Assembly: GCA_021292105.1 (NCBI GenBank)
Contig: CM037869.1
Location: forward strand, 36,583,835 to 36,647,834
Source of the DNA: Anadara kagoshimensis
Taxonomy: Eukaryota > Mollusca > Bivalvia > Arcoida > Arcidae
Direction of reading: 5' to 3'
Length of the DNA: 64,000 nt
The stretch's first letter is position 1, and each line of letters opens with the position of its first letter. A program made the position numbers and the translations under genes. The notes under the pieces were generated by a model. It made no database searches, had not been told where the DNA came from, and saw only the letters and a program-made list of their open reading frames with translations. This document shows positions 2,147 to 57,655 of this stretch, in pieces.

Positions 2147-5100
2147 CCTAAACCATATAAAACAGTCTTAGTAGCTCTCACTTATTTTCTTTATCTCTCC
2201 CACCCTATATCAATACTACCATATACCCCTATATATAGGTGTATATTGTAGTATAGATATCTTATAATATGTATATAGTATAAATATAGTATTTGTATAG
2301 ATATGTAGATAGAAATATACTTATATAATATATATTTATATATATATAATATAGTACACATACTAGGTTCTCCTAAAAAGGGATACAAATATCCCATTGG
2401 AGCTGGCTCTGATGACCCCATTCAATTTCTATTTGAAAGTTAATACAAAGTTTTTACTATGAAAATAACTGAATAACAGTTACATAGCGGTTTTTCAAAA
2501 GTCGGTTTTAATTAACTATAACACTGGGATGCTACCCGTGCAAAAAACATACACCCGTTCTTTCGGGAGTAAAATAAGTAGGGTTGTAAGGGGAAAGTAA
2601 TACAAGTTTTTTTCTTAGTGATAAAAACTAAAATTTATTTACCATACATTTTGTCTGCAATTATTTTTTTGGGGGCCAAAATGCAATTTTTTTGCAAAAA
2701 ATCCCTAAATCGACAAAAATGACCCCATTTTTAGACTAAGGATTTGAAAACGGCAAAAAAATCGAAAAAAAATTTTTATAGACCTCTTAACCACCTCAGC
2801 ATTAAATTTCCTCTAAATAACTCCCATACATTTTTGGTCCAACTTTTCCCTAATCACAGACCTTAAAACTTATCTCAATTTCTTTACACTTAAATTTATT
2901 AAATAGAAACATCTTAAAAACTTACCTAAACCATATAAAACAGTCTTAGTAGCTCTCACTTATTTTCTTTATCTCTCCCACCCTATATCAATACTACCAT
3001 ATACCCCTATATATAGGTGTATATTGTAGTATAGATATCTTATAATATGTATATAGTATAAATATAGTATTTGTATAGATATGTAGATAGAAATATACTT
3101 ATATAATATATATTTATATATATATATATAATATAGTACACATACTAGGTTCTCCTAAAAAGGGATACAAATATCCCATTGGAGCTGGCTCTGATGACCC
3201 CATTCAAATTCTATTTGAAAGTTAATACAAAGTTTTTACTATGAAAATAACTGAATAACAGTTACATAGCGGTTTTTCGAAAAGTCGGTTTTAAATAGTT
3301 ATTGGCACTAGCTTGTTATCTGTGCAAAAAATACACACCTGTTTTGTCACGAGAACGCATACAAATTATTAGGAAAATTTTATAGGCCTTTTTTTCAAGA
3401 CAGAAAAATTTGCAAAAACTAAAATTTATTTACCATACATTTTGTCTGCAATTATTTTTTTGGGGGCCAAAATGCAATTTTTTTGCAAAAAATCCCTAAA
3501 TCGACAAAAATGACCCCATTTTTAGACTAAGGATTTGAAAACGGCAAAAAAATCGAAAAAAAATTTTTATAGACCTCTTATCCACCTCAGCATTAAATTT
3601 CCTCTAAATAACTCCCATACATTTTTGGTCCAACTTTTCCCTAATCACAGACCTTAAAACTTATCTCAATTTCTTTACATTTAAATTTATTAAATAGAAA
3701 CACCTTAAAAACTTACCTAAACCATATAAAACAGTCTTAGTAGCTCTCACTTATTTTCTTTATCTCTCCCACCCTATATCAATACTACCATATACCCCTA
3801 TATATAGGTGTATATTGTAGTATAGATATCTTATAATATGTATATAGTATAAATATAGTATTTGTATAGATATGTAGATAGAAATATACTTATATAATAT
3901 ATATTTATATATATATATATAATATAGTACACATACTAGGTTCTCCTAAAAAAGGATACAAATATCCCATTGGAGCTGGCTCTGATGACCCCATTCAAAT
4001 TCTATTTGAAAGTTAATACAAAGTTTTTACTATGAAAATAACTGAATAACAGTTACATAGCGGTTTTTCGAAAAGTCGGTTTTAAATAGTTATTGGCACT
4101 AGCTTGTTATCTGTGCAAAAAATACACACCTGTTTTGTCACGAGAACGCATACAAATTATTAGGAAAATTTTATAGGCCTTTTTTTCAAGACAGAAAAAT
4201 TTGCAAAAACTAAAATTTATTTACCATACATTTTGTCTGCAATTATTTTTTTGGGGGCCAAAATGCAATTTTTTTGCAAAAAATCCCTAAATCGACAAAA
4301 ATGACCCCATTTTTAGACTAAGGATTTGAAAACGGCAAAAAAATCGAAAAAAAATTTTTATAGACCTCTTATCCACCTCAGCATTAAATTTCCTCTAAAT
4401 AACTCCCATACATTTTTAGTCCAACTTTTCCCTAATCACAGACCTTAAAACTTATCTCAATTTCTTTACATTTAAATTTATTAAATAGAAACACCTTAAA
4501 AACTTACCTAAACCATATAAAACAGTCTTAGTAGCTCTCACTTATTTTCTTTATCTCTCCCACCCTATATCAATACTACCATATACCCCTATATATAGGT
4601 GTATATTGTAGTATAGATATCTTATAATATGTATATAGTATAAACATAGTATTTGTATAGATATGTAGATAGAAATATACTTATATAATATATATTTATA
4701 TATATATATAATATAGTACACATACTAGGTTCTCCTAAAAAAGGATACAAATATCCCATTGGAGCTGGCTCTGATGACCCCATTCAAATTCTATTTGAAA
4801 GTTAATACAAAGTTTTTACTATGAAAATAACTGAATAACAGTTACATAGCGGTTTTTCGAAAAGTCGGTTTTAAATAGTTATTGGCACTAGCTTGTTATC
4901 TGTGCAAAAAATACACACCTGTTTTGTCACGAGAACGCATACAAATTATTAGGAAAATTTTATAGGCTTTTTTTCAAGACAGAAAAATTTGCAAAAACTA
5001 AAATTTATTTACCATACATTTTGTCTGCAATTATTTTTTTGGGGGCCAAAATGCAATTTTTTTGCAAAAAATCCCTAAATCGACAAAAATGACCCCATTT

Positions 5101-5295
5101 TTAGACTAAGGATTTGAAAACGGCAAAAAAATCGAAAAAAAATTTTTATAGACCTCTTAACCACCTCAGCATTAAATTTCCTCTAAATAACTCCCATACA
5201 TTTTTGGTCCAACTTTTCCCTAATCACAGACCTTAAAACTTATCTCAATTTCTTTACACTTAAATTTATTAAATAGAAACACCTTAAAAACTTAC
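2147..5295. repeat. Satellite module C, four tandem copies (778-791 bp)
   Basis: CCTAAACCATATAAAACAG recurs at 2147, 2925, 3716 and 4507, giving periods of 778, 791 and 791. Each unit holds an AT-rich tract of TATA-type microsatellite (about 2220-2350 in the first copy), a short hairpin GGGATA-caaa-TATCCC, and a block starting AATGCAATTTTTTTGC that is related to module D. The first copy carries a different internal cassette from copies 2-4 (see findings). The last copy ends at 5295, joined directly to module A. Confidence 0.95.
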
Positions 5296-7955
5296 AGCTA
5301 AGTTGAAAATATTTTTACAACTGCAAAAACATTTTTATCTTTCCTATAAGAGATTAGAAAACATTTCTTTAATCCTAAACAAAACTTTCTCCCCTCGAAA
5401 AATTAAAAACAGACAACTAGCCTCCAATTTTTTTGCTCCTATTATAGGGTAAATTTCCATTTTTGGTCAAATTTCAATAAAAAAGTCTATAAAATTTTCG
5501 TATACTACACCATGGAAATAGTAAATCACCGATGTAGCGAAATCATCCGAAAATTTGACCACTAAAATCTTGCACTGGCAATTAAAAAATCTTTACTTAA
5601 CTCATTAGAGGTATAAAACTTCAAATAAAATCCACTAAACAACGAACTCCACCTCCAAACTAAACATTAATTTTTTCTTTGCAAAAACTACAAACAGAAC
5701 AAAAATTCTACTTATTAAAAGCAAAATTGACAAAGTTAGCTTTTTAAAAAACTGCGTAAAACTTTTTACAACTGCAAAAATATTTTTATCTTTCCTATAA
5801 GAGATTAGAAAACATTTCTTTAATCCTAAACAAAACTTTCTCCCCTCGAAAAATTAAAAACAGACAACTAGCCTCCAATTTTTTTGCTCCTATTATAGGG
5901 TAAATTTCCATTTTTGGTCAAATTTCAATAAAAAAGTTTATAAAATTTTCGTATACTACACCATGGAAATAGTAAATCACCGATGTAGCGAAATCATCCG
6001 AAAATTTGACCACTAAAATCTTGCACTGGCAATTAAAAAATCTTTACTCAACTCATTAGAGGTATAAAACTTCAAATAAAATCCACTAAACAACGAACTC
6101 CACCTCCAAACTAAACATTAATTTTTTCTTTGCAAAAACTACAAACAGAACAAAAATTCTACTTATTAAAAGCAAAATTGACAAAGTTAGCTTTTTAAAA
6201 AACTGCGTAAAACTTTTTACAACTGCAAAAACATTTTTATCTTTCCTATAAGAGATTAGAAAACATTTCTTTAATCCTAAACAAAACTTTCTCCCCTCGA
6301 AAAATTATAAACAGACAACTAGCCTCCAATTTTTTTGCTCCTATTATAGGGTAAATTTCCATTTTTGGTCAAATTTCAATAAAAAAGTCTATAAAATTTT
6401 CGTATACTACACCATGGAAATAGTAAATCACCGATGTAGCGAAATCATCCGAAAATTTGACCACTAAAATCTTGCACTGGCAATTAAAAAATCTTTACTT
6501 AACTCATTAGAGGTATAAAACTTCAAATAAAATCCACTAAACAACGAACTCCACCTCCAAACTAAACATTAATTTTTTCTTTGCAAAAACTACAAACAAA
6601 ACGAAAATTCTACTTATTAAAAGCAAAATTGACAAAGTTAGCTTTTTAAAAAACTGCGTAAAACTTTTTACAACTGCAAAAACATTTTTATCTTTCTTAT
6701 AAGAGATTAGAAAACATTTCTTTAATCCTAAACAAAACTTTCTCCCCTCGAAAAATTAAAAACAGACAACTAGCCTCCAATTTTTTTGCTCCTATTATAG
6801 GGTAAATTTCCATTTTTGGTCAAATTTCAATAAAAAAGTCTATAAAATTTTCGTATACTACACCATGGAAATAGTAAATCACCGATGTAGCGAAATCATC
6901 CGAAAATTTGACCACTAAAATCTTGCACTGGCAATTAAAAAATCTTTACTTAACTCATTAGAGGTATAAAACTTCAAATAAAATCCACTAAACAACGAAC
7001 TCCACCTCCAAACTAAACATTAATTTTTTCTTTGCAAAAACTACAAACAGAACAAAAATTCTACTTATTAAAAGCAAAATTGACAAAGTTAGCTTTTTAA
7101 AAAACTGCGTAAAACTTTTTACAACTGCAAAAATATTTTTATCTTTCCTATAAGAGATTAGAAAACATTTCTTTAATCCTAAACAAAACTTTCTCCCCTC
7201 GAAAAATTAAAAACAGACAACTAGCCTCCAATTTTTTTGCTCCTATTATAGGGTAAATTTCCATTTTTGGTCAAATTTCAATAAAAAAGTCTATAAAATT
7301 TTCGTATACTACACCATGGAAATAGTAAATCACCGATGTAGCGAAATCATCCGAAAATTTGACCACTAAAATCTTGCACTGGCAATTAAAAAATCTTTAC
7401 TTAACTCATTAGAGGTATAAAACTTCAAATAAAATCCGCTAAACAACAAACTCCTCCTCCAAACTAAACATTAATTTTTTTCTTTGCAAAAACTTACAAA
7501 CAGAACAAAAATTCTACTTATTAAAAGCAAAATTGACAAAGTTAGCTTTTTAAAAAACTGCGTAAAACTTTTTACAACTGCAAAAACATTTTTATCTTTC
7601 CTATAAGAGATTAGAAAACATTTCTTTAATCCTAAACAAAACTTTCTCCCCTCGAAAAATTAAAAACAGACAACTAGCCTCCAATTTTTTTGCTCCTATT
7701 ATAGGGTAAATTTCCATTTTTGGTCAAATTTCAATAAAAAAGTCTATAAAATTTTCGTATACTACACCATGGAAATAGTAAATCACCGATGTAGCGAAAT
7801 CATCCGAAAATTTGACCACTAAAATCTTGCACTGGCAATTAAAAAATCTTTACTCAACTCATTAGAGGTATAAAACTTCAAATAAAATCCACTAAACAAC
7901 GAACTCCACCTCCAAACTAAACATTAATTTTTTTCTTTGCAAAAACTACAAACAG
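5296..7955. repeat. Satellite module A, block 2 (about 5.9 copies)
   Basis: It starts with an atypical joint (AGCTAAGTTGAAAATA) that drops into module A in mid-unit. The unit anchor ATACTACACC then occurs at 5502, 5953, 6404, 6855, 7306 and 7759, giving periods of 451, 451, 451, 451 and 453. The last copy again stops at ACAGAGCAAATTATA. Sequence identity to block 1 is very high, with scattered single-base variants. Confidence 0.95.
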
Positions 7956-37642: not shown

Positions 37643-38235
37643 GTGAGAAAAATATTTTTGATCCGTTATTTCTTCAGTCGCGGTGAATGTCTGTGGGTCA
37701 CGATGGACCATGGTGAAAAATTGATCCCCTCGTATTGTTTCTTGAGGTTGGTTAAGCTGAAAACTGCCTTGGCGCCATCTTATGCAAATCTTTTCATGGC
37801 CGACTTAGAACAGAGAATGATAAATCAATTCTCTGTTAAACCCAACAAAACGAAACAAACCCTTGCCTTAGACGCAACTGCCAATATTGCGCTAAAATTA
37901 AGAAAAACAAAAAGTTTTCATCGTGTATAACCGGGTACAAATACTCAAAGAATATCATCGGCGATTGTGAGACAAGAAATATCATTTACCTTATTTCTTG
38001 CTCAAAATGTCGCAAACAATATGTTGGCCAAAGCAAAAGACCGTTTCGACAAAGAATGTACGAACATATTCGTTACATTGAGATCATACAAGTACTAACT
38101 AGTGACCCAGATGATACATTCTCCCAGAAACACCGGGATGACAGTGAGGATTATTGGATCCTCAAATTAAAAACGCTCAAACCCAAGGGAATTAATGACA
38201 GGCTCTCGGCAAGGCGACAACACTCTGTCTTTTAA
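37643..38235 (+). pseudogene. Penelope-like retroelement fragment: RT tail plus GIY-YIG endonuclease
   Basis: The first frame (37643-37930) contains ALAPSYANLFMADLEQRM, resembling the late reverse-transcriptase motif of Penelope-like elements. A shifted frame from 37924 to the stop at 38233 reads NIIYLISCSKCRKQYVGQ, then KRPFRQRMYEHI and EDYWILKLKTL. This has the IYL...QYVGQ...R...EH layout of the GIY-YIG nuclease used by canonical Penelope-like elements. The usual GIY is IYL-like here. The N-terminal RT is missing, a frameshift separates the parts, and the sequence passes at about 38240 into a HINE core. Not functional. Confidence 0.75.
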
Positions 38236-45572: not shown

Positions 45573-47844
45573 TTTTTAGCTCACCTGGCTAAAACCAGCG
45601 TGAGCTTATGGTATGATGCGGCATGTGTATGTGTGTGCGTGCGTCCGTCCGTCCGTAAACTTTACTTAAACAACTTCTTCTCCTGAACCGAAAGAGCTAG
45701 GATCCCCAAACTAAATATACTTAATCAGCATGTTAAGTTTTACAAAGTTTGTGAATAGATTTGACTTTGACCTTAGTTCAAGGTCACAGTGACCTAGTAT
45801 GTAAAATGCCAAAAATGACTTCTTCTCATGAACCAAAAGGCCTATAGACATCAAACTTCATATATAGAATCAGTATGTAGACTTCTACAAAGTTTGCGAA
45901 TAGATTTGACCTTGGCCTCAGTTCAAGGTCACATTGACCTTTTATGTAAAAATGCTAAAAACGACTTCTTCTCGTGAACCAAAAGGCCTATAGACATCAA
46001 ACTTCATATATAGAATCAGTATGTAGACTTCTACAAAGTTTGCGAATAGATTTGACCTTGGCCTTAGTTCAAGGTCACATTGACCTTTTATGTAAAAATG
46101 CTAAAAACGACTTCTTCTCGTGAACCAAAAGGCCTATAGAAATCAAACTTCATACATATAATCAGTGTGTAGACTTCTACAAAGTTTGCGAATAGATTTG
46201 ACCTTGGCCTTAGTTCAAGGTCACATTGACCTTTTATGTAAAAATGCTAAAAACGACTTCTTCTCGTGAACTAAAAGGCCTATAGACATCAAACTTCATA
46301 TATAGAATCAGTATGTAGACTTCTACAAAGTTTGCGAATAGATTTGACCTTGGCCTTAGTTCAAGGTCACATTGACCTTTTATGTAAAAATGCTAAAAAT
46401 GACATCTTTTTGTGAACCAAAAGGCCTATAAATCAAACTTCATATATAGAATCAGTGTGTTGACTCCTACAAAGTTTGCGAATAGATTTGACCTTGGCCT
46501 TAGTTCAAGGTCACATTGACCTTTTATGTAAAAATGCTAAAAACGACTTCTTTCGTGAACCAAAAGGCCTATAGAATCAAACTTCATATATAGAATCAGT
46601 GTGTTGACTCCTACAAAGTTTGCGAATAGATTTGACCTTGGCCTTAGTTCAAGGTCACATTGACCTTTTATGTAAAAATGCTAAAAATGACTCTTTTTGT
46701 GAACCAAAAGGCCTATAAACATCAACTTCATATATAGAATCAGTGTGTTGACTCCTACAAAGTTTGCGAATAGATTTGACCTTGGCCTTAGTTCAAGGTC
46801 ACATTGACCTTTTATGTAAAAATGCTAAAAATGACTTCTTTTCGTGAATCAAAAGGCCTATAGACATCAAACTTCATATATAGAATCAGTGTGTTGACTC
46901 CTACAAAGTTTGCGGATAGATTTGACCTGGACCTTAGTTCAAGGTCACATTGACCTTGTATGTAAAAATGCTAAAAATGACTTCTTTTCATGAACCAAAA
47001 GGCCTATAAACATCAAACTTCATATATAGAATCAGCATGCTGCAAAGTTTGTGAATTGATTTGATCTTGACCTTAGATCAAGGTTACAGTGGTTAAAAAT
47101 GATAAAAATGACATCTTTTCATGAACCTAAAGTTCTATAGACATCAAACTTCAAATATAGAATCAGTGTGTAGACTTCTACAAATTTTGTGAATAGATTT
47201 GATCTTGACTCGCATGTCATTTGTGCAAAAAAAAAATGCTAAGAATGACTTTTTGTCATGACCCATAAGGAATATAGTCATCAAACTTCATACATAAAGT
47301 CATTGTGGTGAGTTCTGAAAAGTTACAAATAGATTTGTCCTTGGTCTTTATACAGTGGTAGAGCGTCCGCCTCGAGAGCGGGAGGTCGTGGGTTCGAACC
47401 CCGGCCGGGTCATACATAAGACTTAAAAATTTGAGATACTGCTTCCTCACCTGGCACTCGGTATTAAGAGGACAGAGTATCGACTGGTTAACCTGGTGCC
47501 AGGATAATGTGACTGGGGGAGTGGTATGCTTGTCTGTGGCATACTGACTCGGTGAGCTAGCACCTTAACAAAAAGTCGCCCTGAGTGCGCGCTAGTGCAA
47601 GGCAGACCATATAACACACTCGCACATCTCACGCATACACAAACTTGTTCTTAGATTAATCCTTAGAGATTAATAAACTTGTTCTCGTCACGAATAGCTG
47701 AAAAATTGCTGATGTGACGTTAAACAACATTACAACCAACCAACCAACCTTGGTCTTTATACATGGTCATAGTGGCAGAAAATTGCTTTGATTTTGGCTA
47801 ATGCACACCAGGTGAGCGATACAGGCCCTTTTGGGCCTCTTGTT
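45573..47844 (+). mobile_element. HINE/pearl-like element with about ten 146-bp core repeats and a SINE insertion
   Basis: 5' TTTTTAGCTCACCTGGCTAA, 3' CCAGGTGAGCGATACAGGCC and CTTTTGGGCCTCTTGTT. The phrase GAACCAAAAGGCCTATAGA recurs at about 45830, 45976, 46122, 46268, 46414, 46557, 46701, 46846 and 46992, spacing 143-146. Units contain AATAGATTTGACCTTGG and TTCAAGGTCACATTGACC. The LINE target was CACGTTGATT. The SINE at 47355-47747 lies inside. Confidence 0.92.
47355..47747 (+). mobile_element. tRNA-derived SINE (head family 1), 5' truncated
   Basis: Starts GTGGTAGAGCGTCCGCC, with B box GGGTTCGAACCCC, body ACCTGGTGCCAGGATAATGT, tail GCTGATGTGACGTTAAACAAC and a (CCAA)n end. It is flanked by a 16-bp duplication, CCTTGGTCTTTATACA (47339-47354 and 47748-47763), within a HINE. 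This dates it after that insertion. The first dozen bases of the head are lost. Confidence 0.93.
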
Positions 47845-48085
47845 GATTAATTAAATTAATTTAGACTTTAGTCATATTATTCTGTGAATCCCGGTTAACT
47901 TTATTGCGTTTATGAAACTTTCAAGGTCAATCATTTTCAGTCAGTTTTGAATAATTACTGAACGTTTAATTTTTCTGGCTTTGAGTTCCATACAAAATTG
48001 AAAAATGAGTTGTGGAGATACTTTATGGTCTTTTCAGGAGGATTAGGGAGAGACAAAAATAAATAATTAAGTTTAGATATTACAA
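47845..48085 (-). pseudogene. LINE segment, ORF2 thumb region
   Basis: Minus-strand frame LNYLFLSLPNPPEKTIKYL, FFNFVWNSKPEKLN and MIDLESFINAIKLTGIHRI. These correspond to the conserved LP-x-P and NGGLK-type blocks after the RT catalytic core. At least two stops are seen. Confidence 0.85.
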
Positions 48086-48466
48086 TTGTTGTAATTGTTG
48101 TAATGGTGCTTAACGTCGCATCAGCAATTTTTCAGCTATTCGCGACGAAATCTATTTTTTTTAATCTCAAGGATTAATCTATACACAAGTTCATGAGGTG
48201 CGTGAGTTGTGCAGTATTTGTGATCTGCTTTGTACTAGAGTGCACTGATGGCGACCTTTAGAGTGCTAGCACACTGGTAAACAATGTCGCAGATTAACAT
48301 TGCACACCACTCGGTCACATTATACTGACACCGAGCCAACCAGTAAGGGCCAACGGCAAGGAAAATTCACTTTCTCACATGTGGCCCGACCGGGGATCGA
48401 ACCCACAGCGGTGAGAGACCTTGGATTTGAAGGCCAACACCTTAACCACTCGGCCACCGCGGCCCC
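48086..48466 (-). mobile_element. tRNA-derived SINE with a different (Ser/Leu-like) tRNA head
   Basis: On the minus strand it starts GGGGCCGCGGTGGCCGAGTG, with the long GTTAAGG A-box form typical of class II tRNAs and B box GGGTTCGATCCCC. The body and tail (GATTAATCCTTGAGATTAA, GAATAGCTGAAAAATTGCTG, ATGCGACGTTAA) match the head-family-1 SINEs. It is flanked by AGATATTACAA (48075-48085 and 48467-48477), inserted in the LINE. Confidence 0.92.
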
Positions 48467-49292
48467 AGATATTACAAGTGTTTTTATAATCGTTATTCTT
48501 CCAAGTGGTGTAAGATTCATAGAAGACCAAAGTTTCAGTATTAATTTTATTTCCTTAATTCTTTTGTCATAATTCAAATCTATTATTTTGAATAAATTTA
48601 TTGAAAAATTTATACCTAACAAAGAAAAAATTTTGCATTACATTCAAATTTATACCTATGATTAAAAGTTTCTCCACAAAACTTTTTACAACCTATCCAA
48701 ACAGATTTACATTTAGATTCATTGATATTTAGACCAGATATTTTTGCAAAATAGTCAAAAAACTTTTAAAGTTTCTTATAAAGAAGAATTTGATCCGTCT
48801 AAAATAAAAATGGTACATCATCTGCAAATTGAGATATTTTGTGTTCTTCGGTACTGATTGTGATTCCCTTAATACTCTTATTATTTTCGACTAGGATATA
48901 TAATATTTCTGCACATAGTAAAAGGATATAGCTTGAAATTGGATCTCCTTGTCTAACCCCTCGTGATATTGAAAAAAAAATCAGATAAATAATTATTCTG
49001 TGTTACTGCTGCAGTGATATTTGTGTAGAAAACTTTAATCTGTTTTTTTACTTTCTCCAAAATTAAAGAAATTTAAAACTTCAAATAAAAACGGCCAGGC
49101 TACACTATCATATGCTTTTTGAAAATCGATCAGAAACAACATTCCAGGGAGATTTTTCCGTTTTGTAAATTCCATGATATTGTATATTAATATTTTCTCC
49201 AATATATCGCCCGCTTATAAATCTGGTTTGGTTTTCTGAAATTACGTTACTTAGGACCAGTTTTAATCTATTAGCTATACAGCCAGATGCTA
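48467..49292 (-). pseudogene. LINE segment: reverse transcriptase catalytic core
   Basis: Minus-strand frames, broken by stops and shifts, show VLSNVISENQTRFISGRYIG, then LIDFQKAYDSVAW (first catalytic Asp), a GVRQGDPIS-like block and ISQFADD (catalytic pair), then LLGINFSINLFKI and SSMNLTPLGRITIIKTLVIS. FADD and the thumb motifs are those of the L1/Tx1 group. The protein is inactive as it stands. Confidence 0.9.
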
Positions 49293-49999
49293 TTTTTAGC
49301 TCACCTGAGCACAAAGTGCTCAAGTGAGCTATTGTGATCAGTCTTTGTCGTCCGTCGTGCGTCAACTTTTGCTTGTTAACACTCTAGTGGCCACAATTTT
49401 TATCCAATCTACCTCAAACTTGCCCTAAGGCATCTTCTTGACAAAAGCCAGCTCAAGTTCGTATATGGGTCATGTCGGGTCAATAAGTAGGTCACAAGGT
49501 CAAATCATAGGAAAGCATTGTTAACACTCTTGAAGCCCAATTTTAGTCCAATCTTCATCAAACTTGCTCAGAATGATCCTCTTGACAAAAGCTAGCTGTA
49601 GTTCGTATATTTGCCATGTTGGGTCAATAAGTAGGTCAGGAGGTCAAATCTTAGAAAAACCTTGTTAACACTATGGAAGCCCCAATTTTAGTCCAGTCTT
49701 CATCAAACTTGCTCAGAATGACCCTCTTGACAAAAGCTAGGTCAAGTTCATATATCGGCCATGTTGGGTCAATAAGTAGGTCACGAGGTCAAATCTTAGA
49801 AAAACCTTGTTAACACTATGGAAGCCCCAATTTTAGTCCAGTCTTCATCAAACTTGCTCAGAATGATCCTCTTGACAAGAGCTAGCTCCATTTCGTATAT
49901 GGGCCATATTGGATCAATAAGTAGATCACTTAGTCATCATACCAGACCTCCTTACAAATTATTCTCAGGTGAGCGCCAGGGCCTTCATGGCCCTCTTGT
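49293..49999 (+). mobile_element. HINE/pearl-like element inserted in the RT domain
   Basis: 5' TTTTTAGCTCACCTGAGCAC, core of CTTGACAAAAGCTAGC and CCTTGTTAACACTATGGAAG units (about 146 bp), 3' CTCAGGTGAGCGCCAGGGCC and CATGGCCCTCTTGT. It sits between codons of NVEY|KIASGC of the LINE; removing it leaves the frame intact with the T-run of the target. Confidence 0.9.
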
Positions 50000-51491
50000 A
50001 TATTCCACGTTTAAGAGAGATATGGGCCTCCAGTTATTTAAAAATTGTCTATCTTTATCCCCCTTTGGTATACATGTTATAATCCCTGCTCTTTGAGTTA
50101 TAGATAAATGACCCAATGAATACCCGTAATTTATTGAACGTATAATAAAGTCCCCTAAATCTTTCCAAAATACTTCAAAAAATTCAGTTGTAAACCCATC
50201 AGACCCTGAACATTTATAATTTTTCATATGTTTTAACGTCTTCAGAGCCTCACTATAAGTAATTTCTCCTTCTATATACTTTGCCTCCTTGTCTGATACT
50301 TTAGGTTTGTTAAAACTTTTAAAATGTTCTTCAAGATTTATTGGTTCTACTGGTTTTTCAGAATATAAACTTTTATAAAACAATTTTACTTCTTCAAGGA
50401 TTTCTTTTTGATCATTTAGTTCCGTGCCATCTGTCTTTTTTATTTTAGTTATTGTTTTTGATATATAATTTTTATTTTCAAGATTACAAAAAAGTGAGAC
50501 GGTTTTTCTCCCTCTAAAATCCATTGTGCTCTTGACCTTACTAGATGACCTTTAAGTTTTTCTTTCCTTATGTTTTCTAAGTCAGATTTCTTTTTTTTTC
50601 GATAATGTTGTAGTTTTTTTTAATGTTATCAATATCTGTCTCAAATTTATTTATGTTGTCTAATAATTGTTTTTCCTTTTTATCTATTTGTTTTTTTTCT
50701 ATAACCACTGTAAGAAATTGTTTGCCCCCTAATTTCCATAAGTAAGGTTTCTAAAAATAGTTGATCTGAAATTGTAAATTGAATTGATTTATTATCAATG
50801 GCATCTATGTTTTTCAAGTTATAAATTGGCACGCTATATTGGAGTTTAACTGTTGAAATGGTATTTTTAATTTTTTCTAAATATTTTTTATCTTCAAGTA
50901 AATGTTATTAATTTCCATAAGCCTCTGCCTACAGAAAACTCGTTTAATTTCATTGATAATATTACCATTGATTGAATGGTCTGATCTATAACTAGGGTCA
51001 ATGTCTATTTTTGAAATTCTGTTGATTAGGGAGCTGCTTATTTAAAAGAAGTCTAATCTAGCTTGTTTAAAAGGGTTTTTTCTGCGCCATGTATATCTCC
51101 GTAAATTTGGGTACAAGTATCTGAACGGGTCTACTATACTAGTCTCATCTATTATTTCTAATAATTTATCTCTTGCTTTTGGGTTATTTATGTTTTTATA
51201 GTTATTAGTGTCCAATTCTGGTTTAAAAAACAAGATTAAAATCACCGCATATTATAATATTTTTGTTATCAAACTTATTACATACAATTTCTTTAGGTTT
51301 GCTATAAAAAGAAGGGCTATTAGTATTTGGGCCATATATTGTTTTTAACGTAAATGAGTGTTTTTCTACTGTTATATTTAGAGTTAGAAAGTTGACATCC
51401 TCTTGTTTACATTGTGAATTTATTTTGTACTCAAAATTATCTTTAAATAGTATACATACTCCTCTAGCAGCAGTATTATATGAACATGATA
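50000..51491 (-). pseudogene. LINE segment: AP-endonuclease domain and N-terminal half of RT
   Basis: From high to low coordinates on the minus strand: KTIYGPN, then IIICGDFNLVF with the catalytic Asp/Asn (near 51250), a frameshift, RRYTWRRKNPFKQARLDFF (51042-51110) and YRSDHS with the final catalytic Asp-His (near 50975). Next come a linker, QWILEGEKPSHFF and the 180-codon frame 49985-50524 with CSGSDGFTTEFFEVFWKDLG and IPKGDKDRQFLNNWRPISLL. The order endonuclease then RT fits an APE-type LINE. Frameshifts and stops show it is dead. Confidence 0.9.
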
Positions 51492-52117
51492 CTACTTTAC
51501 CACCCTTTGGGCTGAAATAAAATTTTCATCATTTGGACCAAAATGTACGTCTTGTAAACAGTAAATATTAGTATCTTTAGCATTAAGAGAATTAAAAAGA
51601 TCTCTTCCATATGTCCATATTTTGAATCTTTTAAAACCGAGTTTCTCTCCTTTAGGATTCCACCGTGACACAATTACAAGGAAATTTCCTATTTCTTTAT
51701 CCAGTAGCATGTTTAGAATTTTCTTACCAGCTCCATATTCGCTGTCATCGTCAATTGAATCTTTTAAATACCCATGTCTATCCAGAAAGGTGCATGCTAA
51801 TACATTGTGGTTGGCTTCAATGATATGGGGTTCCTTAATAATCTGGAGTGCGGCTTCTCTAGCTTCCGCTATGCTTTTTACTCTTACTGCATGTGATTGG
51901 AACCTATTTTCTCCTACTGTTGTAACATAACTGTGTTTAATATTATATTTTAGGTATCGATTAGTTCTCCTTGTGCACGTCTCGGTCCGGAAATATAAGT
52001 TTGTCACCACTTACTTTAGTATTAACCCCACCTTCTCTATACTGATCCCTGAGGTAAAAAGCTCTTTTGTGTTTTTTGCGTTGGGCTTCTGGGTAGTGAC
52101 TGTAAACCCTTATACCG
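51492..52117 (-). pseudogene. LINE ORF1 C-terminus with an IMPACT/UPF0029-like domain, running into the endonuclease
   Basis: Next to the HINE the frame reads GIRVYSHYPEAQRKKHKR and DKLIFPDRDVH, the C-terminal part of a Tx1/L1-like ORF1, with a stop near 51958. A shifted frame (51492-52010, 172 codons) reads SHAVRVKSIAEAREAALQI, EANHNVLACTF, DDDSEYGAGKKIL (87-99) and LVIVSRWNPKGEKLGFKRF (111-129). The DD-x-E..G.G, V-V-SRW and LG-x-x-RFK blocks are the signature of the IMPACT N-terminal (UPF0029/YigZ) fold. From residue 149 it reads IYCLQDVHFGPNDENFI, the start of the endonuclease. Either the ORF1 domain is fused to ORF2 or a deletion joined them; about 20 early endonuclease residues are missing. 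Confidence 0.75.
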
Positions 52118-52174
52118 TTTTTAGCTCCCCTGGCCTAAAGGCCATGTGAGCTTTTGCCATCACTCAGCGTCCAT

Positions 52175-52205
<31 letters not shown>

Positions 52206-53887
52206 CAGTCAGTCAGTCAGTCTGTCCGTCTGTAAACTTTTCACATTTTGGCTATCTCCTCTGAAACCCCTGAACCAATTTTAACCAAACTTTACAGGAA
52301 TGTTGTATAGAAGGTCCTTTACATAGATTGCCAAAATTTTTCTGATCTGCCAAAAAACATGGCTGCCAGCGCAGAAGATAGTTTAACATTGGACCCTATG
52401 GGAAAAACGAATTTTTGGCTATCTTCTCAGAAATGACTGAAGCGAATATAACCAAACTTTACAGAAATGATGTATAGAAGGTCCTTTTCTTTGATTGCCA
52501 AAATTTTTTTGATCCGCCAAAAAACATGGCTGCCAGCGCAGAAGATAGTTTAACATTGGACCCTATGGGAAAAGCATATATATGCTATCTCCTCTGAAGC
52601 TAGTGAAGCATATTGAACCAAACTTTACAGGAATGATGTATAGAAGGTCCTTTACATAGATTGCCAAAATTTTTCTGATTGGCCAAAAAACATAACTGCC
52701 AGCGCAGAAGATAGTTTAACATTGGAACCTATGGGAAAAATGAATTTTTGGCTATCTTCTCAGAAATGACTAAAGAGAATTTAACCAAACTTTACAGAAA
52801 TGATGTATAGAAGGTCCTTTACTTTGATTGCCGAAATTTTTCTGATCTGCCAAAAAACATGGCCGCCAGGGCAGAAGATAGTTTAACATTGGATCCTATG
52901 GGAAAAGCATATATATGCTATCTCCTCTGAAGCTAGTGAAGCAAATTGAACCAAACTTTACAGGAATGATGTATAGAACGTTCTTTACTTTGATTGCCAA
53001 AATTTTTCTGATCTGCCTAAAAACATGGCTGCCAGCGCAGAAGATAGTTTAACATTGGACCCTATGGGAAAAACGAATTTTTGGCTATCTTCTCAGAAAT
53101 GACTGAAGCAAATTTAACCAAACTTTACAGAAATGATGTATAGAAGGTCCTTTACTTTGATTGCCGAAATTTTTCTGATCTACCAAAAAACATGGCTGCC
53201 AGCGCAGAAGATAGTTTAACATTGGACCCTATGGGAAAGGCATATATATGCTATCTCCTCTGAAGCTAGTGAAGCAAATTGAACCAAACTTTACAGGAAT
53301 GATGTATAGAAGGTCCTTTACATAGATTGCCAAAATTTTTCTGATTGGCCAAAAAACATGGCTGCCAGCACAGAAGATAGTTTAACATTGGACCCTATGG
53401 GAAAAATGAATTTTTGGCTATCTTCTCAGAAATGACTGAAGCGAATTTAACCAAACTTACAGAAATGATGTATAGAAGGTCCTTAACTTTGATTGCCGAA
53501 ATTTTTCTGATCTGCCAAAAAACATGGCCGCCAGGGCAGAAGATAGTTTAACATTGGACCCTATGGGAAAAGCATATATATGCTACCTCCTCTGAAGTGA
53601 GTGAAGCAAATTGAACCAAACTTTACAAAAATGATGAATGAAATAAATTCAACAAGATTGCCTCCTTACCTCCACTAAACACATGACCACCAACATAGAT
53701 AAAAAAACACATTTCAACCATCTCTTGAAACTACTGAAGCAATTCATCCATTCTATACAATAATTATATATATAAAACCCTTTACTACAATACAGCCAAA
53801 GATGTACCATTGTGGTTAATGAAATGTGTATATCCTTCCTCTTGTTTAATCTATCAAAAAGCTTTCTTTTGCATTTAAAATGATGCA

Positions 53888-54469
53888 TTTTGCAAGTTTA
53901 AACACAAAATAAAACTTGTCAGTAGCACTACCAGAGAAAAAGCTACATTCCATTTGATATGTCGATCACAGTGATTTTTCTTGGAAAGTCTAGCTGAACT
54001 AACATTGACCAAATTTTTTTATCAACAAAAAATATAACTTCCAGTGGGGTACATAGTCAGTCAAAAGCTGATCATAGTCGATCGATCAAAAGCTCATCAG
54101 AACTTTGTTTTAATTTATCTATGTAAATGGCCTCTAAATAAAACTTATTTATTTATTTATAGTTGAACATGGGACCAAATGCAAAAAAAAACCCCAAAAA
54201 ACTGCAATCTGATTAAAATAAGATCTCTCACTTGCTGCCCTTTTCTGATATAGTTGCTTCATGAGAGAGTTAAGGGTCATATGTGAATGACCTTATGGTA
54301 ATTAACTAAAACTGACCATTCAAATTGCACGTTTCATTTACAAAAAAGGCATAACACTTTCAAAATCTTGGAAACTGAAATTTCATTGGACAATAAATGT
54401 TGCAACAATAGGTCATTCACATATGCCCCTAAACGGTGTTTCCTTAGATCTCCAACCACGCCTATATCA
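53888..54469 (+). mobile_element. Unique 3' body of the outer 166-bp HINE
   Basis: Non-tandem part of the outer element. Its segment CACTTTCAAAATCTTGG ... CAATAAATGTTGCAAC (54356-54410) is the inverted counterpart of 54725-54785 in the nested element. No protein frame. Confidence 0.7.
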
Positions 54470-56354
54470 ACCAGAGGCTCAGTGTGGCTGAGCCTGTATC
54501 GCTCACCTGACTAAAATGCTTTTAAAGCAAATTTGTATTCCAGTGATGAAAAAATGTTTATATCAGACAGAATGGCTAAGGAAATCACTGTAGAACTATA
54601 TGTACCATTCACAGTTTTTTCAATCTGATTAAAATCACATCTCTCACTTGCTCCCCCATTTTTGATATAGGCGCGGAGTGGGAGATCTGAGGAAACACCG
54701 TTTAGGGGCATATGTGAATGAGCCATTGTTGTAACATTTATTGTCCAATGAAATTTCAGCTTCCGAGATTTTGAAAGTGTTTTGCCTTTATTGTATATGA
54801 AACGGGCAATTTGAATTTGTCAATCTAAGTAAAGGACCTTCCATACATCATTCCCATAAAGTTTGGTTTAATTTGCTTCAGTAGCTTTAGAGGAAATAGC
54901 AAATATATGCTAGTCCCATAGAGTTAAACTATGTTCTGTGCTGGCAGCCATCTTTTTTGGCGGATCAAAAAAATGTCCACAATCTAAGTAAAGAACCATC
55001 CATACATCAGTTCCTTTAAAGTTTGATTCAATTTGCTTTAGTAGCTTCAAAAGAAATAGCAAATATATGCTTTTCCCAAAGGGTCCAATGTGAAACAATG
55101 TTCTCCACTGGCAGCCATGTTTTATGGCAGATCAGGGAAATTTTGGCAATCTATGTAAAGGACCTTCTATACATCATTCCTGTAAAGTTTGGTTCAATTT
55201 GCTTTAGTCATTTCTGTGGACATAGTCAAAAATGCGTTTTTCCCATAGGGTCCAATGTTAAACTATCTTCTGCCCTGGCGGCCATGTTTTTCGGCGGATT
55301 AGAAAAATTTTGGCAATCTAAGTAAAGGACCTTCTATACATCATTCCTGTAAAGTTTGGTTAAATTCGCTTTAGTCATTTCTGAGGAGATAACCAAAATG
55401 CGTTTTTCCCATAGGGTCCCATGTTAAACTACCTTTTGCTCTGGCAGCCATGTTTTTTGGCCAATCAGAAAAATTTTGGCAATCTATGTAAAGGACCTCC
55501 AATACATTATTCCTCTAAAGTTTGATTAAGTTTGCTTCAATAGTTTCAGAGGAGATAGCCAAAATGTGTTTTTCCCATAGGGTCCAATGTTAAACTATGT
55601 TCCCCGCTGGCAGCCATATTTTTAGGCGGATCAGAAAAATTTCGGCAATCTTTGCAAAAGACCTTCCATACATTATTCCTGTAAAGTTTAATTGAATTCG
55701 CTTCAGTCGTTTCAGAGGAGATAGCCAAAATGTGCATTTTCCCATAGGGCCCAATGTTAAACTTTGTTTGGCCCTGGCGGCCATTTTTTTTGGCGGATCA
55801 GAAAAATTTGGGCAATCTTAGTAAATGACCTTGCATACATTATTCCTGTAAAGTTTGGTTCAAATTGGCTCAGCGGTTTCAAAGAAGATAGCAAATATAT
55901 GCTTTTCCCATAGGGTCCAATGTTAAACTATCTTCTGCGCTAGCGGCCATGTTTTTTGACGGATCAGAAAAATTTTGGCAATCTAAATATAGGACCTTCC
56001 TTACACCATTCCTGTAAAGTTTGGTTGAATTTGCTTCAGTCATTTCTGAGGAAATAGTCAAAAATGCATTTTTCTCATAGGGTCCAATGTTAAACTATCT
56101 TCTGCGCTGGCAGCCATGTTTTTTGGCGGATCAAAAACATTTCGGCAATCTAAGTAAAGGACCTTCCATACATCATTCCTGTAAAGTTTGGTTAAAATTG
56201 GTTCAGGGGTTTCAGAGGAGATAGCCAAAATGTGAAAAGTTTACAGACGGACTGACGGACTGACAGACTGACGGACTGACGGACGGACTGACGGACGACG
56301 GACGCCGAGTGATGGCAAAAGCTCACATGGCCTTTAGGCCAGGTGAGCTAAAAA
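54469..56354 (-). mobile_element. Nested minus-strand HINE of the same family
   Basis: Reading on the minus strand it starts TTTTAGCTCACCTGGCCTAA (56354 downwards), has a (GACT)n run at about 56245-56290 on the plus strand, 166-bp cores and ends with the GAGCCTGTATCGCTCACCTG complement at 54480-54515. It interrupts the outer copy at TATATCAA|AAATGGGGG. It is the only copy in the window in minus orientation. Confidence 0.88.
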
Positions 56355-56548
56355 TGGGGGAGCAAGTGAGAGATGTGATTTCAATCAGATTGAAAAAACT
56401 GATTAGTACATATAGTTCTACAGTGATTTCCTTAGCCATTCTGTATAATATGAAAAGTGCATTTGTTCATCACTGGAATACAAATTTGCTTTAAAAGCAT
56501 TTCAGTCAGGTGAGCGATACAGGCTCAGCTGCACTGAGCCTCTGGTTT

Positions 56549-56876
56549 AGTTTTTTGGCATTATCTAACACTAACACTTTTTGTGAATAATTGGTACAAC
56601 GGCCCACTATAGATCTTGGGTAAGTGTCGTTTGTGCTCGTTTTACTTCTGATACGATGGATTCTGTCAAACTTGACACAAAGTTGCTTAATTAGGACTGG
56701 TTACTTCTTAAAAAAAAATTTCTCCAAAAAAAGTGGGTGATTTTGGCTGTTAGGATTGTGAACCTAGCCTTTGAATGTAAAGAGATTGCTGAAAAAGTCA
56801 TACCTACATGTAAGATAGGTTATATCCATAAATATACATGCACATTAAGGTAGACTACTAAACTTATGGCAACATA
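56549..56876 (-). pseudogene. LINE segment: ORF1 RRM-like region
   Basis: The minus-strand frame reads LIKQLCVKFDRIHRIRSK, then RSIVGRCTNYSQKVLVLDNA ending KKL, which is continued by GIRVYSHYPEAQ across the HINE insertion. The phrase F-D-R-x-H-R followed by P-x-x-IV-x-x-x-x-x-Y is the RRM-type nucleic-acid-binding block of L1/Tx1 ORF1. A stop lies upstream (about 56700). Confidence 0.7.
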
Positions 56877-57655
56877 TTTTTAGCTCACCTGTGCACAAAA
56901 TACTCAAATAAGCTATTGTTGTGGGTCTTTGTCCATCCAGCGTGCATCAACGATTGATTGTTAACATTCTAGAAGCCACAATCTTTCATCAAATCTACCT
57001 AATACTTGCTAAATGTTATCCTCTTGACTAGCTAGCTTTGTAGTTTGTATATGAGTCATGTTGGATCAAAAAGTACATCACATGCTCAAATTATAAAAAA
57101 ATCAAGCTAACACTCTTGAGACCCCAATGGAAGTCCAGTCTTCACCAAACTTGCCCAGAATGGTCTTTTGCCAAAAAACCGGGTCAAGTTTGTATATGGG
57201 TCATGTTGGGTCATTGTGTAGGTCATTAGGACAAATTATTGGAAAACCTTGTTTACACTATTGAGACCCAAGTTTTAGTCCAATCTATATCAAACTTCCT
57301 GAGAATGACCGTCTTGACAAAAACTAGCTCAGGTTCGTATATGGTTCATTTTGGGTTAATCAGTAGGTCAGTAGTTCAACTATAGGAAAACCTTGTTTAC
57401 ATCCTGGAGGTGTCAATTATAGAACTTTATCAGAATGATCATTTAGAAAAAGCTGGCCTAAGTTCACATACAAGCCATGTTGGGTCAGTAAGTAGGTCAC
57501 TAGGTCAAATGATAGGAAAACCTTTTAACACGCTTGAAGCTTCAATTTAGTCTAATCTTCGAAGTTGATCAGAATAATTCTCTTGACAAATGCTAGTTTA
57601 AGTTGAAATATTGGTCATGTTGGGTTAATAAGAAACCCTATCATCAAACTTGTCA
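56877..57655 (+). mobile_element. HINE/pearl-like element, 3' truncated
   Basis: 5' TTTTTAGCTCACCTGTGCAC, core of CTTGACAAAAACTAGCTCAG and GGGTCATTGTGTAGGTCA units of about 146 bp. No 3' hairpin is found; the boundary near 57640-57660 is approximate. Confidence 0.7.

Follow-up and report, generated by a model that had tools for sequence, protein, structure and literature searches.

The locus

The window analysed here is a stretch of 64,000 nucleotides from the bivalve Anadara kagoshimensis (GenBank assembly GCA_021292105.1, contig CM037869.1), and it holds on its minus strand the remains of a LINE. Within these remains, an open frame of 172 codons (51492-52010) encodes a UPF0029 domain, the ancient domain of the IMPACT proteins, at 51621..51905 (minus strand), which represents the C-terminal domain of ORF1. 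Residues 36-130 of the frame match PF01205 in a Pfam scan (E 2.2e-15, 57 bits, cut-off 27), and among relatives of solved structure yeast Yih1 ranks first (E 1.1e-4). An IMPACT/UPF0029-like domain had been proposed at this place by a first-pass annotation made from the sequence alone, which named a PF01205 profile match as the way to check it; the significant match bears the proposal out, and the motifs then recognised correspond to DDxE-GAG, VxxSRW and LGxxRF, blocks of the UPF0029 family. An AlphaFold2 model had a mean pLDDT of 75.7 and a pTM of 0.69.

Upstream of the domain, by-eye comparison with the intact ORF1 of a related copy, L012, revealed a remnant of an L1-type CTD (GIRVYSHYPEAQRKKHKR...) at 51962..52116 (minus strand, edges approximate), frame-shifted relative to the UPF0029 frame. 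ORF1 of the window copy starts inside the CTD, of which only the end is left. The ORF1-type sequence that had been reported upstream is thus real as regards the CTD, in another frame, while the RRM-like part reported with it is not present in this copy. Past about 52116 the likeness to ORF1 ends and the sequence runs into a tandem-repeat array with a 166/333-bp period (52246..53636), adjoining the 5' edge of the LINE remnant.

Downstream, the N-terminal part of the ORF2 AP endonuclease (EN) occupies 51223..51608 (minus strand); it was recognised from residues 135-168 of the frame, which align with other copies independently of the UPF0029 part, and the match of this fragment to Exo_endo_phos (E 0.019) lies below the cut-off. 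The EN frame is broken near 51500 by a frame shift after residue 169. The end of ORF1 is joined to EN at 51609..51620 (minus strand), as placed by blastn (L009 4371/4383 against L012 4226/6052), and about 1.8 kb has been lost at this junction relative to L012-L015. The window copy shares the deletion between the ORF1 end and EN with L009, L010 and L011, and it is because of this deletion that UPF0029 and EN are directly fused in one frame in the window.

Two further pieces of ORF2 follow on the minus strand. A fragment at 49985..50551, covering the EN-RT linker and the start of the reverse transcriptase (RT), is collinear with ORF2 of L012-L016 at 90-93% DNA identity and gave no Pfam match when scanned alone; an RT fragment with the FADD motif lies at 48799..49002 and matches RVT_1 below the cut-off (E 0.0021, 18.2 bits, cut-off 29.6). 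The RT is split by an insertion at 49297..49992, seen as a gap in the alignment with L015, which carries a 145-bp tandem array (49372-49929). The ends of this insertion, read by eye, are inverted (GCTCACCTGAG/CTCAGGTGAGC), and it presumably resembles the satellite-bearing short elements of bivalves. With its ORF1 starting in the CTD, its EN frame-shifted and its RT split, the window copy is, as had been stated before, dead: an internally deleted derivative of a LINE family.

The closest copies, L009, L010 and L011, match residues 1-169 of the window frame at 100%. Identity between the window and L009 and L010 is 99.4-99.5% over 8.5 kb, and L009-L011 are 99.87-99.93% identical among themselves with the tandem repeats included, so that a larger duplicated unit must be common to the copies. 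This unit of at least 8.5 kb surrounds the dead LINE (about 46000-57000 of the window), has tandem arrays on both sides and was encountered on contigs C13, C9, C10 and C18.

Organisation of ORF1 and ORF2 in the family

The architecture of the family was studied in 20 loci of 10 kb, picked for long frames or for diversity and not at random. Open ORF1 frames measure 414-465 aa from stop to stop, with the UPF0029 domain at the C-terminal end, and PF01205 was found in all seven ORF1 proteins scanned (57.8-74.7 bits, cut-off 27), which confirms that the domain belongs to ORF1 of a LINE family. In a profile built from eight ORF1s, the C-terminal part aligns with Yih1 (E 2.9e-16), and the coiled coil, RRM and CTD align collinearly with human L1 ORF1p (2ykp, E 5e-6; structures of the same type: 2yko, E 6.6e-6, and 2ldy, E 1.4e-5), the coiled coil being assigned solely through this match to the L1 ORF1p structures. 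In the eight aligned ORF1s UPF0029 sits behind the RRM-CTD. These proteins are therefore like the type II ORF1p of L1, from which they differ by the added C-terminal domain and by not reaching the PF02994 cut-off in the Pfam scan of the seven proteins; a family search with Transposase_22 (PF02994) returned no place in this genome and none in the control genomes either, and is uninformative. With E values as high as 1 allowed, the scan showed no RWD domain in any of the seven ORF1 proteins.

ORF2 resembles that of L1 throughout. In L025 its frame spans 1271 aa between stops, contains EN, RT and zf-RVT domains and aligns from end to end with human L1 ORF2p (E 2e-97; best R2 protein, E 2e-23). 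Between the ORF1 stop and the ORF2 ATG (estimated for L018, L024 and L027) lies a spacer of 0.58-1.78 kb in nine families (L012, L017, L018, L019, L021, L022, L024, L025 and L027), with a GC content of 0.28-0.35 and, in some cases, frames of 108-120 aa. In this the LINE group is unlike mammalian L1, whose corresponding spacer is far shorter. The earlier placement of the domain between ORF1 and the endonuclease was correct in that AP-endonuclease sequence follows it; the domain, however, is the C-terminal end of ORF1 itself, and in open copies the spacer comes before EN. UPF0029 occupies the ORF1 C-terminus in divergent families. Both ORFs are open in one locus of the 20, L025, and a short A-run follows ORF2 of L019.

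Two loci have another arrangement: in L023 (4679-9771) and L026 (4739-10000), a repeat unit of about 105 bp is arrayed in tandem for kilobases downstream of the UPF0029-bearing ORF1, and no ORF2 frame of at least 150 aa was present within the 10 kb examined.

Copies in the genome and linkage to the endonuclease

All family-level statements refer to one genome, that of the host (1.115 Gb in 36 contigs). When it was searched with the 172-aa window protein, 150 of 554 candidate places were scored and all 150 had E <=1e-3, some of them matching the EN part only. In a search with the PF01205 family, the 150 places scored, out of 275 candidates, were all above the cut-off. Sampling every tenth row of the latter gave 15 places, three already known and 12 new; an L1-type ORF1 part lay upstream of the UPF0029 domain in nine of the 12, and in the other three (L131, L134 and L137) no ORF1 part was recognisable within about 640 bases upstream. 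Partial UPF0029 matches at L037-L042, considered as candidate exons of a host IMPACT gene, turned out to be LINE fragments. A search for ORF1 in viral contigs gave four pattern matches and no relatives.

The association with ORF2 was evaluated from the other side, using the N-terminal 60 aa of the L025 ORF2 as an EN probe (150 places scored of 748 candidates) and comparing the EN places with a list of 193 UPF0029 places. A UPF0029 domain was located upstream of the EN start, on the same strand and within 6 kb, at 50 of the 150 places, against 0/150 in the control (UPF0029 downstream, or upstream on the other strand). The distance was 134-1,754 bases in 46 cases and 2,314-5,680 in four.

The one-off insertion of a host IMPACT pseudogene beside an unrelated LINE, which the first-pass annotation had named as the case that would refute its proposal, is how the window copy with its odd fusion could look if taken by itself. 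It was rejected on the multicopy searches, with 150 scored places in each of the two, and on the EN linkage of 50/150 against 0/150; the recurrence of the same architecture in divergent families and the purifying selection described below also argue against it, and its probability is next to nil.

At the remaining 100 EN places no listed UPF0029 domain lay upstream. ORF2 frames of 1000 aa or more were present at 21 EN places; a listed domain was upstream in nine of them and not in 12. The frame around the domain in the nine is 462 aa long in L025 and 152-290 aa otherwise, so that an ORF1 frame of more than 400 aa accompanies a long ORF2 in 1/9. Six of the 12 places without a listed domain were examined over 0.9 kb taken 0.9-1.8 kb upstream: one begins inside UPF0029, one inside the spacer, and four contain nothing recognisable. 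This pattern fits what 5' truncation would give; LINE elements without the UPF0029 domain, which the first-pass annotation had listed among its refuting cases, possibly exist in the genome as well.

Origin of the domain

UPF0029 proteins range from bacteria to mammals, and the source of the LINE domain was addressed with a FastTree phylogeny of 12 LINE domains, Yih1 and 28 of 81 bacterial sequences. The LINE domains and Yih1 form a clade with support 0.997, and the LINE domains are monophyletic with respect to Yih1 at 0.97, a value resting on one eukaryotic outgroup sequence. An EPSG motif with two extra loop residues is found in 81/81 bacterial sequences, which had been gathered partly by that motif, and in neither Yih1 nor any of the 12 LINE domains. 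In terms of sequence, then, the LINE domain groups with Yih1 and is set apart from the YigZ of bacteria.

The host appears to have an intron-containing IMPACT gene of its own. A search with a Yih1 fragment found an IMPACT-type exon on contig C19 that encodes 45 aa, is 66% identical to Yih1 over 35 residues and has splice sites recognised by eye; a search for the host exon by a DNA pattern for GETAAGGR had no match. The motif G..RF is common to the LINE domains, Yih1 and this exon. The exon occurs with equal score at C19:29488231 and C19:28009838, 1.48 Mb apart, reflecting either a duplicate gene or an assembly duplication.

A domain taken from bacterial YigZ and not from a eukaryotic IMPACT gene would be conceivable given how widespread UPF0029 is in bacteria, and given a bacterial-like YigZ contig, C22, in the same assembly. 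Such a source is very improbable in view of the LINE and Yih1 clade, the distribution of EPSG and the shared G..RF. The earlier suggestion of a capture from the host agrees with the eukaryotic rather than bacterial type of the domain, and we infer a single capture from an IMPACT-type host gene, after which the ORF1 module would have spread among ORF2 lineages. It is highly probable that ORF1 of this LINE family, of which the window holds a dead copy, is a type II ORF1p (coiled coil, RRM, CTD) with a C-terminal UPF0029 domain of the eukaryotic IMPACT branch.

As for contig C22, it contains the top place of the PF01205 search (L029), which resembles bacterial YigZ. This place lies in a stretch of low GC (0.29) where the YigZ frame, of bacterial type, is accompanied by further frames that look bacterial, and the stretch appears to come from a contaminant or an associated microbe.

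Selection and conserved residues

The UPF0029 domain of the LINE ORF1 is under purifying selection across many lineages. In the single unsaturated close pair, L012 and L009, the domain has dS 0.28 and dN 0.04, a ratio of about 0.15. In L022/L023, pS and pN are 0.79 and 0.12 for UPF0029 and 0.78 and 0.20 for the rest of ORF1. Overall, pN was lower than pS in 21/21 comparisons from 11 chosen pairs, dS being saturated in 18 of the 21.

Within the shared core, the same H, D, E, R and G occur in 28/28 bacteria, Yih1 and 12/12 LINE domains, and the R and F of G..RF are present in Yih1 and all 12 LINEs and in none of the 28 bacteria. Positions fixed in bacteria are partly lost in the LINEs; one glycine of RWYGG, for instance, is retained in 1/12.

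Descent and probable exchange of the ORF1 module

Trees of the nine families were built from the ORF1 N-part, UPF0029, EN and RT. The ORF1 N-part and UPF0029 trees both join L021-L024 (support 100 and 60) and L025-L027 (100 and 88), and the EN and RT trees join L018-L021 (99 and 100) and then L027 (99 and 100). According to AU tests, 3/3 ORF1 data sets reject all three ORF2 trees and 3/3 ORF2 data sets reject all three ORF1 trees, in both directions with p 3.4e-4 or lower. For the UPF0029 data, the full ORF1 tree is acceptable (p 0.31) and the ORF1 N-part tree is not (p 0.006), which means that the signals of the ORF1 N-part and UPF0029 are close and not identical.

The arrangement of the elements was compared with that of other copies. 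Second copies collinear over UPF0029, spacer and ORF2 at 98.6-99.7% were found for the four families tested, L018, L021, L025 (over 2,757 of 3,600 bases) and L027, and the pairing of ORF1 with ORF2 is supported by other copies for L012, L019 and L024; L028, the second copy of L024, has about 1 kb extra in its spacer. From the conflict between the trees together with the collinear second copies it follows that UPF0029 stays with ORF1, with which it is cohesive and not with ORF2, and we conclude that the ORF1 module passed from one ORF2 lineage to another. Such an exchange shows a route by which a captured domain can reach further lineages of LINEs.

Relation to known elements

Additions to LINE ORF1 have been described, in the available parts of a survey, as PHD (types III and IIC), esterase (type IV) and zinc motifs (PMC4120745). 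The family described here is like the PHD and esterase types in having a modular ORF1 with an accessory domain and reticulation between ORF1 and ORF2, and is unlike them, as far as that account goes, in that the addition is C-terminal to the CTD (PMC4120745). The terms UPF0029 and 'IMPACT domain' have no occurrence in the main text of PMC4120745, nor has UPF0029 in that of PMC10294476, which reports, in the sections available, L1-Tx1 LINEs in 35 mollusc species classified by RT and EN; these bivalve L1-Tx1/Tx1 elements possibly belong to the same wide group as the present LINEs. No report of UPF0029/PF01205 joined with a retrotransposon was found among the papers examined, a set drawn from outside Repbase, preprints and most subscription journals. 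What is new here is an IMPACT-type domain captured into a type II ORF1; modular ORF1s with accessory domains were already known.

The LINE proteins resemble IMPACT and Yih1 in their UPF0029 domain, which is of the eukaryotic branch and keeps H, D, E, R and G as well as the G..RF motif. They differ in that no RWD was found in them and in being intron-free, multicopy and encoded in a retrotransposon ORF.

Possible function

The function of the ancient domain is stated as unknown in the accessible text of PMC4503747 and PMC7140605. The same texts report that IMPACT/Yih1 inhibits Gcn2, that both proteins associate with ribosomes, that the competition for Gcn1 maps to the RWD domain and the RWD-linker region, RWD by itself being inhibitory, and that the motifs shared by Yih1 and YigZ are clustered on one face of the ancient domain (PMC4503747, PMC7140605). 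The region binding Gcn1, actin and ribosomes overlaps the linker and is not assigned to the ancient domain alone in the available part of PMC4503747, and a suggestion repeated in that of PMC6822775 is that PF01205 counters the inhibition of translation in starvation.

A link with GCN1 and GCN2 had been drawn earlier from homology. If it held, UPF0029 would act as a decoy of the integrated stress response, engaging GCN1 or its neighbours and dampening GCN2, so that the element RNA could be translated under stress; the inhibition of Gcn2 and the ribosome association of IMPACT/Yih1 (PMC4503747, PMC7140605), like the suggested role in starvation (PMC6822775), would agree with this. The reading is weak, however, because in the sections available the activity is placed in the RWD/linker part of Yih1 (PMC4503747, PMC7140605), and that part is absent in ORF1, the seven proteins scanned having no RWD. 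The link is not supported by homology, and a decoy of this kind seems quite unlikely.

A broader role as an adaptor to translation can be formulated from the same comparison. ORF1p would coat the RNA of the element, its oligomer would present the UPF0029 domain, and this domain would bind a conserved part of the translation machinery. Such binding could hold the RNP near ribosomes, favour assembly in cis and help the element RNA to be translated despite the long ORF1-ORF2 spacer or under stress. The adaptor is retained as a tentative possibility because the shared core residues are kept, and its central step is weakened because ribosome binding by Yih1 is not assigned to the ancient domain alone in the text available (PMC4503747). 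In a fuller form, the captured IMPACT domain on ORF1p would be an adaptor to ribosomes or translation stress that keeps the RNP on translating ribosomes or shielded from the stress shut-off, and the module would have been exchanged among ORF2 lineages because it is advantageous; taken as a whole, this is unlikely.

The domain may instead give ORF1p a further surface for binding RNA or packing the RNP, with no relation to ribosomes or stress signalling. By its match to L1 ORF1p, the protein would be an RNA chaperone, UPF0029 is placed behind the RRM-CTD in the eight aligned ORF1s, and the same limit on the ribosome binding of Yih1 (PMC4503747, in its available part) would favour such a surface; against it, the invariance of H, D, E, R and G across 28 bacteria, Yih1 and 12 LINEs argues for a retained ancestral ligand-binding face and not for a new generic surface. 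An RNA or RNP surface is a serious possibility, if somewhat short of an even chance. Our best guess is that UPF0029 would serve as an accessory of the ORF1 RNP that binds either the translation machinery or RNA.

Of the two halves of a LINE, ORF1p is the less well understood, and its accessory domains reveal host systems that an element must engage. To our knowledge, no other retrotransposon has a translation-stress module of its own. The many diverged retrotransposon copies under selection constitute a natural mutagenesis data set for UPF0029, and a retrotransposition assay would give the domain a phenotype.

Other features of the window

Apart from the array next to the LINE, the window contains tandem arrays at 45741-47207, 54816-56231 and 57110-57401. 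A frame of 131 aa on the plus strand (37840-38235) recalls, on our assumption, the GIY-YIG endonuclease of Penelope-like elements.
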